Origin: Cyanobacterium sp. Dongsha4
GTDB taxonomy: Bacteria > Cyanobacteriota > Cyanobacteriia > Cyanobacteriales > Cyanobacteriaceae
Length of the DNA stretch: 64,000 bases
Assembly (NCBI RefSeq): GCF_036345015.1
Contig: NZ_CP084098.1
Location: 434,001 to 498,000, forward strand
Direction of reading: 5' to 3'
Position 1 is the first letter of the stretch. The number at the start of each line of letters is the position of its first letter. The notes under the pieces were generated by a model that had not been told where the DNA came from, searched no databases, and was given only the letters and a program-made list of their open reading frames with translations. A program made the translations under genes and the position numbers. Positions 5,637 through 45,548 of the stretch are shown here, one piece after another.

Positions 5637-5816
5637 ACCTGAGTTCAGGATAAATGTTCATCTATGAGTGATGGCGAAAAGGGCAAGAGGCAAAGTAAAA
5701 AGGGCAAAGATGAATAGTGTTGGGGTGAATAGTTGATAATTAAGAATTAAAAATTAAGAATTAAAAACTCTGAACTCCGAACCCTTATCCGATATTCTTA
5801 AACTGAAATGAGGTTA
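5637..5816. repeat. Dispersed TIR-like repeat, full copy (family E)
   Basis: Left end ACCTGAGTTCAGGATAAAT at 5637; right end ACTGAAATGAGGTTA finishing at 5816. The interior holds AAGGGCAAGAGGCAAAG and AATAGTTGATAATTAAGAAT, the same modules found at 19713-19833, 24664-24865 and 31655-31766. No ORF. The last three bases (tta, 5814-5816) are the stop codon of the leftward DUF938 gene, so the repeat end supplies that stop. Confidence 0.75.
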
Positions 5817-7953: not shown

Positions 7954-8409
7954 CTAGCTAATAGTATTTTTCCCCTGTAAATAATCTTGTATTTGGCGAT
8001 CGTGATCATGAGCTAAATTGCCAATGGGAATTTCTTGGGGAGAAAAAGCCTTAACTTGGGTAATTTCCCAAGTATCTTTAACTGATAATTCTCCAGTGGC
8101 TTCAACTTCAACGAGAACACAAATAGAATGTAAACGGGGATCTCGGTCTGGAGATGAATAAACACCCACTAAGCGTGAAATATTGACTAAATCTAAACCT
8201 GTTTCCTCTTTCAACTCTCGACGGGCAGTATTGGGAACATCTTCACCCCAATCAATCATTCCTCCGGGTAAACTCCATTGTTGACAGTCTCTACGATAAA
8301 CAAGGACAACTCTGCCGTCAGGTAAAATCGGCACAAGGGTAACACCCATGACAGGATGACGGAAAATTATTTTGAGAACTCCAGAAATGAATTGCCAATT
8401 ACGCCACAC
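7954..8409 (-). CDS. NUDIX hydrolase
   Basis: Hydrolyses a nucleoside diphosphate linked to another moiety; substrate undetermined. The full Nudix box is visible: GGMIDWGEDVPNTARREL followed by KEETGL (about residues 49-73), fitting Gx5Ex7REUxEExGU. Length of 151 residues is normal for a single-domain member. The start at 8409 is a GTG without a clear ribosome site; the next Met would remove the first strand, so GTG is kept with modest certainty. A sulfotransferase gene lies 146 bases upstream in transcription, apparently unrelated. Confidence 0.88.
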   Translation of the reverse strand: MWRNWQFISGVLKIIFRHPVMGVTLVPILPDGRVVLVYRRDCQQWSLPGGMIDWGEDVPNTARRELKEETGLDLVNISRLVGVYSSPDRDPRLHSICVLVEVEATGELSVKDTWEITQVKAFSPQEIPIGNLAHDHDRQIQDYLQGKNTIS

Positions 8410-14640: not shown

Positions 14641-14693
14641 CCTGAACCCTGACACCTACTCTTATCTAATATTCTTCAACCGAACTGAGGTTA
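14641..14693. repeat. Right end of dispersed repeat family E
   Basis: CCTGAACCCTGACACCTACT followed by ATATTCTTCAACCGAACTGAGGTTA in pieces, ending at 14693, four bases before the stop codon (14698-14700) of the leftward Wzc-like gene. The left end of the element was not found here. Confidence 0.65.
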
Positions 14694-19712: not shown

Positions 19713-19833
19713 TAGGTTATATGGGTATTAGGGGTTAGGAGTTATTAATTATCAACTATTTACTTTTGCCCTTTTAACTTTGCCTTTTTCTCCATCACTC
19801 TATAGATGAAAATTTATCCCGAACTCAGGTTAT
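19713..19833 (-). repeat. Dispersed repeat family E, reversed, one end missing
   Basis: Read on the minus strand: ATAACCTGAGTTCGGGATAA (ending at 19833), TATAGAGTGATGG, GGCAAAGTTAAAAGGGCAA, AATAGTTGATAATTAATAAC. These match the 5637-5816 element module by module, but the GAGGTTA end is lost. The 372-base gap from the tRNA to the GH116 start has no other visible content. Confidence 0.65.
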
Positions 19834-24663: not shown

Positions 24664-24865
24664 ATTAACCCGAGTTCAGGATAAATTTGTCTGGTTATGG
24701 TAGCGGATTAAAAAGAGGAATTTAAGACAAAGCAACAGGTAAAGAGTAAAGGGCAATGGGCAAAGTTAAAAGGGCAAGAGGGCAAGGGGCAAAAGTAAAT
24801 TAGTTTCTCCCCAACACCCTGAAACCTAGCCTTATCCGATATTTTTGCATGAAACCGAGGTGTTA
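24664..24865. repeat. Dispersed TIR-like repeat, full copy (family E)
   Basis: Left end TTAACCCGAGTTCAGGATAA at 24664; right end CCTTATCCGATATTTTTGC, then GAAACCGAGGTGTTA ending at 24865. The middle is dominated by GGGCAA units (about 24745-24795). Both ends are shared with 5637-5816 although the middle differs. It ends five bases before the ATG of the 97-residue protein, so it probably carries or displaced that gene's promoter and ribosome site. Confidence 0.75.
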
Positions 24866-31654: not shown

Positions 31655-31766
31655 TAAAAAGGGCAATGGGCAATGGGCAAGGGGCAAAGGTAAATAGTTG
31701 ATAATTAATAACTCTTAACTCCGAACCCTGACACCTACCCGATACTCTTAAACCGAACTGAGATTA
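31655..31766. repeat. Dispersed repeat family E, right part
   Basis: GGGCAATGGGCAATGGGCAA at about 31661, AAATAGTTGATAATTAATAA, AACTCCGAACCCTGACACC, then CTCTTAAACCGAACTGAGA ending with TTA at 31766. Four bases later is the glpK stop codon (31771-31773, complement TAA). The ACCTGAGTTC end is missing. Confidence 0.7.
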
Positions 31767-45108: not shown

Positions 45109-45548
45109 AAATAATAAGAAATTGATAAAAGTTTGATTAACATTCTGATTGTAATTGTTTTGGCTCTTTTACTTGAAGTAAGATTAATTATGGCCTAACT
45201 AATGATAAATTCGAGTGTCTTAAACCTAAAACCTGTCTAAATCAAATATTATTACATCGAAATGAGGTTATATTTGACAATTGTATGTTGCCGATTTAAC
45301 TTTGCCTTTATATATCAGACAGATGAAATGACAATATTATCCATTCATTAATGAAAAAGAATAGCTATAATGGATATATGCCTATACATTGTCAATTAAT
45401 ATTAAGAAATATTAAGAAAAATGTTAAAGACTGTTGCAAAAATAGAGAAAAATTTATCTGTGTGACCGTTTTAGCTTAAATTCCTAAACATAAGCCATTT
45501 ATAATCAAATAAGATATTTTAACAACATTAATTTTTAGGAGATAAATC
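45109..45548. other. Divergent region upstream of chlP and the rfbA-like gene
   Basis: No gene. A diverged family-E right end lies at 45241-45270 (ATCGAAATGAGGTTA). Direct copies of AATATTAAGAAA occur at about 45400-45420. The ribosome site TAGGAGATAAATC precedes the chlP GTG start. The chlP promoter should be in 45300-45520. Confidence 0.45.

Follow-up and report, generated by a model that had tools for sequence, protein, structure and literature searches.

BOX repeats of Streptococcus pneumoniae are short, dispersed and enriched between convergent genes and, in the available part of their description, the stop codon at the very end of 36 genes is encoded by BOX, with no strong evidence for truncation (PMC3049150). 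Repeats that supply stop codons are known already from this pneumococcal example. G-rich heptads with the units GGGNATC and GGGGA(C/T)T lie near or overlap stop codons in Xanthomonas and Nostoc; the accessible text places them on the sense strand in Xanthomonas, reports a preference for the non-coding strand in Nostoc and describes them as generally unassociated with insertion sequences (Rehm et al., PMC4692102). MITEAba12, a 111-114 bp derivative of ISAba12, contains stop codons in all six frames and is reported, in the excerpts available, to have no orientation preference, one of its copies truncating a gene by 398 residues (PMC6382973).

The element considered here, E1, is found in a window of 64,000 nucleotides (C1:434001-498000 of the 4.32-Mb genome G000; G+C 34.7%). 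Its family, like BOX, consists of short dispersed repeats that are enriched between convergent genes and supply stops. BOX is, however, an unrelated transposon that is cited as a parallel by description only, and the asymmetry of the E1-family ends, the reconstruction of a stop from TA and A, and the heptad interior were not met in the part of the BOX description that was available (PMC3049150). The heptads of Xanthomonas and Nostoc are also seven-nucleotide units near stops, G-rich on the sense strand in Xanthomonas (PMC4692102, available part), whereas the E1-family heptads are, as judged by eye, other units and form the interior of a transposon-like element. MITEAba12 is likewise an IS-derived MITE with one copy that ends a neighbouring gene, but its length, the extent of that truncation and its parent IS are different (PMC6382973, excerpts). 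The E1 family is new as an IS982-type variant with a clear geometry for remaking the stop, and there is evidence that it acquires much of its stop association after insertion. A search of the literature found no description of the E1 family, which is a weak statement.

E1 and its IS982-type relatives

E1 (5637-5814, plus strand) is an IS982-type MITE with the termini ACC...GGT and belongs to the old subfamily; it was recognized from its sequence, from BLAST matches and from the presence of an element at the same site in G001, a genome of another species of the genus. Comparison of the ends makes the left end (5637-5676) the counterpart of the right end of an IS982 element, and the right end (5780-5814) the counterpart of its left end. 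The interior (5677-5779) is of low complexity, has the 7-nt periodicity of the family and differs in the orthologous copy of G001. The ORF list of the window has no ORF of at least 80 aa inside E1, and a search of the window with Rfam at the gathering score returned two tRNAs only and nothing for the element. There is no detectable target-site duplication (TSD) at E1. The site is occupied in both species, and the insertion is older than the split of G000 and G001.

The gene that abuts the right end codes for a DUF938 protein (PF06080; 5814-6434, minus strand), identified from the ORF list and the Pfam profile. A sequence-only reading of the window held that the end of the repeat supplies the stop codon of this gene. 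The minus-strand gene does extend from 6434 to 5814, with a TAA stop complementary to 5814-5816. The element itself, however, contributes only the last A, because the TA (5815-5816) is target DNA. The C-terminus of the protein has the usual length, as judged from 13 relatives; in one of these, that of G001, the element is also present at the gene. DUF938 has not been shortened by E1.

A BLAST search of the genome with E1 gave at least 57 matching pieces (40 of 603 candidates were scored). The best paralogues among the scored matches reach 93% over positions 3-180 and 89% over positions 1-180 of 5637-5816. A pattern made from the right end occurs 173 times with up to three mismatches, compared to 8 times for the reversed control. 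A 27-mer of the right end is present in 89 copies in G000 and in 292 copies in G001, and among 13 other genomes of the family that were searched it was found once in two and was absent from 11. The roughly threefold larger number of these 27-mers in G001 suggests that the two genomes differ in recent activity. Paired elements, sought at 100-500 bp, are 143-440 bp long. Old copies have the left end TAACCTGAGTTCGGGATAAA... and those of a younger subfamily TAACCTGAGTTTTGGATAAG..., and the right end of the family is ...CCGATATTCTTAAACCGAACTGAGGTTA.

Some copies show additional features. In young copies such as L010 (G000:C1:259688-259793), the left ~105 bp closes with an inverted-repeat-like terminus of its own, CTTAACCCGAACTAACGTTA, creating an impression that the left part of the young subfamily is a smaller MITE fused to the heptad and right-end part. 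Six young copies in contig C1 of G001 (3496290, 3617125, 914030, 1103236, 1500832 and 997526) have the 9-bp TSD TATTTGTTA and the flanks in common, and thus probably lie inside another repeat that carried them along. A MITE copy in G000 (L017, C1:3114952-3115937) has two short reading frames inside it, which by eye resemble an IS1-type transposase pair and presumably belong to a nested insertion sequence. In one convergent gap (L049, G000:C1:205961-206214; G001:C1:1547571-1547815) the element has opposite orientations in the two genomes, as a result of either inversion or independent insertion. An apparent strand bias of the G001 right ends was rejected as a listing artefact, a contiguous sample having 47 on the plus and 34 on the minus strand.

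A 968-bp copy with almost identical ends encodes a transposase of the IS982 family (NF033520, 272.2 bits against a cut-off of 130; PF13612 was also matched). The IS982-family element is present in 11 full-length genomic copies with 99-100% identity, in addition to several fragments. One of the full-length copies is situated on a separate contig, possibly a plasmid (L093, G000:C4:1376-2251). The ends of the IS, TAACCTCAGTTTTGGATAAG and TAACCTGAGTTTTGGTTAAG, were compared with the MITE right end, which reads TAACCTCAGTTCGGTTTAAG as its reverse complement, and with the MITE left end, TAACCTGAGTT(CG/TT)GGATAA. One end of the IS contains CTCAG and the other one CTGAG, and these two variants recur in the right and left ends of the MITE. 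Sixteen of 20 terminal positions match IS982 in the right end and in the old left end, and 19 of 20 in the young left end.

Perfect TSDs of 6-9 bp, mostly of the form TA-N(2-4)-TA, flank 66 of 105 paired MITEs, 61 of the 66 having distinct flanks. Among 11 IS copies, 10 of them full-length and 1 truncated, 8 have perfect TSDs of 6-7 bp, likewise mostly TA-rich. Insertion is confirmed by four copies, the sites of which are empty in the other genome: G001 3591502 (TAAAATA), 3970253 (TAACTA) and 3485656 (TAATTA), and G000 4102370 (TATATA). The empty counterpart of the TAACTA site is in the window (7955-7960), where the target reads TAGCTA and lies over the TAG stop of a minus-strand gene (7954-8409). 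E1 and its relatives are thus similar to the IS982 family (NF033520 / PF13612) in that both ends match the resident IS, down to the distinction between CTCAG and CTGAG, and in their TA-rich TSDs of 6-9 bp, but they are without a transposase and the right and old left ends differ at 4 of 20 terminal positions. On these sequence grounds the E1 family is a non-autonomous IS982-type MITE, with putative mobilisation by IS982.

Element ends at stop codons

Three further right ends in the window, all on the plus strand and with no recognisable left end, face stop codons at the distances given in the sequence-only reading. The right end at 2140-2174 (GAGGTTA at 2168-2174) is 34 bp from the stop of a DUF1622 gene (2209). 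Another one, at 14659-14693 (GAGGTTA at 14687-14693), is 4 bp from the stop (14698) of a Wzc-like gene, which Wzc models match below their cut-offs, and the third, at 31732-31766 (GAGATTA at 31760-31766), is 4 bp from the stop of glpK (31771). Two other plus-strand copies face start codons. One is a probable degenerate element with its left end at 24666 and a right-end-like sequence to 24861 (about 24857-24861), and the other is a degenerate right end at 45241-45270 (about 45264-45270) with 6 mismatches in 28. A left end with a heptad interior is positioned in inverted orientation at 19783-19832 (minus strand), where a strict right end was not found.

For counting, an end was considered to be near a stop codon if its distance, measured from the outermost TA, was -3 to +9 bp. 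The genes were those of our own hexamer-scored ORF finder, and all near-stop counts rest on its calls. The G000 sample is partial and is enriched in left ends, 16 of its 80 regions having been picked from E1 BLAST matches; the G001 sample comprises 1.67 Mb of this congeneric genome. The counts omit three G001 right ends and one left end that fall within called genes, as well as one left end that has no called neighbour. The right end is near the facing stop in 25 of 77 cases in the G000 sample and in 35 of 129 in G001, or 60/206 pooled. The corresponding numbers for the left end are 8/66, 16/118 and 24/184. Near starts there are 2 of the 206 right ends and 1 of the 184 left ends.

Two expectations were calculated. 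The simpler one, 4.8%, was derived from the TA-N-TA targets in gaps free of elements and includes targets on the TA of the stop codon itself; the G001 gaps with right ends were removed for this purpose and those with left ends only were kept. The other one is a position-weight target model, trained on copies away from stops, which gives 7.45% for right ends and 5.3% for left ends. The 60 right ends near stops compare to about 10 expected from TA-N-TA targets (p = 5e-30) and about 15 from the target model (p = 2e-20). The clustering at stop codons, first noticed on a handful of ends in the window, is thus above chance in the two samples. The peak is sharp, there being 25 right ends at -3 to 9 bp and 4 at 10 to 29 bp in G000. 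Gaps between convergent genes account for 62 of 165 element-bearing gaps compared to 200 of 1252 other gaps in G001, and for 43 of 98 compared to 72 of 418 in G000.

The orientation shared by the ends in the window turned out to be a property of the flush sites, at which right ends outnumber left ends (p = 1.2e-4 for the pooled counts above). It does not extend to tandem gaps, in which the right end is directed to the stop and to the start in a ratio of 35:28 for old and 5:4 for young copies, showing no strong orientation preference.

At the innermost, -3 position, occupied by 23 of the 206 right ends and 14 of the 184 left ends, the stop consists of TA from the target and A from the element's outermost base, an arrangement possible at either end. 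Since the TA of a TAA or TAG stop serves as part of the target and TAA is remade by the outer A of the element, the protein is usually unchanged. This was examined in orthologues. Right ends at up to 30 bp from a stop number 29 in G000 and 44 in G001, and an orthologue of the facing gene was sampled for 13 and 14 of them, respectively; with five on both lists, the comparisons cover 22 genes. In the other species, 14 of the 22 orthologues lack the end at the stop, and 13 of these 14 terminate at the same codon with their native stop. Truncation of the host gene is therefore not the rule and was rejected as such, the normal length of DUF938 being in agreement with this. At G001 3970253 and 3485656 a TAG stop in the empty site corresponds to TAA in the occupied one, and at 1042459 both sites have TAA. 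At the one exception among the 14, G000 1125825, the orthologue is longer by five codons; it keeps an apparent remnant of the other end, so that the element has probably been lost there.

Insertion preference and probable later accumulation

Copies with a perfect TSD were taken as clean insertions. Their right end is near a stop in 9 of 65 cases, which is borderline against the target model (p = 0.05) and more than expected from plain TA-N-TA (p = 0.004), and their left end in 1 of 66. If only the clean right ends that face a stop are considered, 9 of 46 are near it, compared to 16.2% expected from the target model (p = 0.32). The remaining right ends are near a stop far more often, in 51 of 141 cases (p = 9e-4 versus clean) and, among those facing a stop, in 51 of 94 (p = 1e-4 versus clean). 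The same contrast is found within pairs, both for the right end (9/65 with a perfect TSD and 15/39 without, p = 0.007) and for the left (1/66 and 7/39, p = 0.004). Since target preference and avoidance of starts explain the clean insertions and the excess is in the remaining copies, the excess near stops probably accumulates after insertion. Two of the earlier suggestions, selection for harmless sites and a target preference near gene ends, are together adequate for clean insertions but not for the full excess, which resides in copies without an intact duplication.

The TSD contrast was first noticed on the initial data and was unrepeated in a fresh 800 kb (5/21 versus 1/5, p = 1), which contains few copies without a TSD. 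A strict link between the flush position and a missing TSD, strong in the first data, was rejected after the fresh 800 kb did not repeat it. With TSDs that may contain one mismatch, the pooled contrast between the right ends weakens (15/78 versus 9/26, p = 0.12). There is no clear difference in proximity to stops between unpartnered (29/79) and partnered (12/46) right ends (p = 0.24), whereas retention predicts that the unpartnered ones should be closer.

Taken together, it appears fairly probable that E1 belongs to an IS982-type MITE family that uses TA-rich targets, remakes the stop in place and undergoes an extra pile-up at stops after insertion. Several processes could contribute to the pile-up. 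Copies that are distant from genes may be lost by decay. An end that directly abuts a coding sequence would be hard to remove by a deletion that spares the gene, and may be retained. Deletions anchored at an element end, possibly made by the transposase, would halt where the gene begins. The near-stop excess counts combine the effects of age, retention and deletion, which are not separable in them.

A transposase that actively targets stop codons or gene 3' ends, with the right end toward the gene, is a rather unlikely source of the pattern. It would account for the difference between the right and left ends of clean insertions near stops (9/65 versus 1/66, p = 0.009), for the TSD beginning with a stop triplet in 49 of 61 cases if read toward the right end compared to 35 of 61 toward the left, and for three polymorphic insertions exactly on stop codons, found among right ends, the only ends examined in this respect. 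However, the clean right ends that face a stop are near it about as often as the target model predicts (p = 0.32), the full set of 65 is borderline, and the stronger enrichment of copies without a perfect TSD would be left unexplained.

Still less probable is the co-option of the right end and the G-rich heptads as a 3'-end module, such as a terminator, a processing site or an RNA-stabilising signal, kept by selection. A transcript 3'-end function had been put forward in the sequence-only reading, and the composition of the elements is suggestive of one. At 20-100 nt inward from the right end the sense strand has a G content of 0.29-0.39 and a C content of 0.07-0.12, and at least four G-tracts of two or more are found within 120 nt in 177 of 208 right ends, the C counterpart being found in 2 of 208. 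Right ends also outnumber left ends at stops. In the available part of the Xanthomonas study, G-rich heptads on the sense strand are located within 50 bp of the stop, and X. axonopodis transcripts start or stop more often at G4-forming repeats than at control repeats (PMC4692102). Nevertheless, being near a stop is independent of the G-tracts in right ends (52/174 with and 8/31 without, p = 0.83) and the result is similar for old left ends (7/52 versus 10/61, p = 0.79); young left ends give 2/4 versus 5/67 (p = 0.046), a value based on four cases. The G-skew is alike in near-stop (0.231), far (0.204) and start-facing (0.231) right ends. Near-stop right ends are no better conserved than the others (2.27 versus 2.15 mismatches, p = 0.40), the inward RNA of 25 sampled right ends is predicted to fold no better than shuffled sequences (mean z 0.16), and the end is missing at the stop of 14 of the 22 comparable genes in the other species. 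As far as G-tracts, conservation and predicted folding can tell, such a function appears to be unsupported.

That the pattern is due to chance or to the gene caller, the ORFs ending at the element because it carries stops, is hardly credible, for although TAA is carried by both ends and the element completes the stop at 23 of the 60 near-stop right ends (the -3 class), the stop is outside the element in the other 37, 13 of the 14 orthologues that lack the end have their stop at the same codon, and only 2 of 206 right ends are near starts.

Interior replacement and a probable deletion at a gene end

The 7-nt periodicity of the interiors is evident in 189 distinct sequences, in which the match is 0.493 at a lag of 7, 0.409 at 14 and 0.363 at 21, compared to 0.28-0.29 after shuffling. 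E1 and its orthologue in G001 (L199, G001:C1:3967643-3967887) share both ends and the flanks, the match being 0.94 in the right flank and 0.97 in the right end. Their interiors do not align (0.12), and each has a non-orthologous copy in its own genome at 0.90. At eight of the nine shared sites compared, the best paralogue is closer than the orthologue in the interior. As this is a maximum over many copies, it is more telling that the orthologous interiors at the eight sites match at 0.12-0.67 and thus resemble random pairs (mean 0.52, sd 0.15, 200 pairs). The interior is conserved (0.76) at the ninth site (1253731), where G001 does not have a strict right end. Such a replacement of the interior as is seen at the other sites would result from gene conversion among copies or from a rapid turnover of the heptads.

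At one locus the two genomes differ in the DNA that separates the right end from the stop. The G000 element at 2974219-2974492 is flanked on either side by the TSD TATGTA, and 484 bp lie between its right end and the facing called stop. In the G001 orthologue (3726784-3726545) the left flank is the same, and the right end is joined to the facing stop, the TAA of which is composed of TA and A. The DNA missing from G001 contains a small ORF, uncalled by the gene finder, that matches a thioredoxin-like [2Fe-2S] ferredoxin (PF01257, 28.5 bits, cut-off 24.8); in G000 its start and the stop of the facing gene overlap. A search with the 484-bp stretch returned a single match in G000 and no match in G001. 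Relatives of the small ORF are found in two other genomes, G003 and G009, but not beside the facing gene in the 3-kb loci.

With some doubt, the difference can be read as a deletion that occurred in G001, a single case in which the direction is deduced from G000, where the TSD is intact and the small ORF overlaps the facing gene. The doubt stems in part from the right flank in G001, TATTTA, which matches the left TSD copy at five of six positions, a match that is likely to be fortuitous because the targets are TA-rich. The junction at G001 3726545 suggests that the deletion was anchored at the element end, and it was possibly made by the transposase. A more general process might be imagined, a one-way ratchet in which the right end makes or anchors deletions that remove the spacer, occasionally together with a small gene, and that halt on reaching the TA of a stop, where the A restores TAA, the interior being overwritten by other copies while both ends are kept. 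Such a ratchet is speculative and, on balance, improbable.

The association of the E1 family with stop codons is real and largely ordinary; the asymmetry of the ends and the replaced interiors are the interesting residue. Duplications and sister-species sites make it possible to separate the share of the association that arises at insertion, a modest preference, from the later share, which seems to be most of the pile-up. The family links 7-nt-periodic, G-rich intergenic DNA to a transposon family in a cyanobacterium. It also represents a nearly cost-free route by which a bacterial MITE can occupy stop codons, the target giving TA and the element A. If end-anchored deletion is general, such elements would help to compact gene ends.
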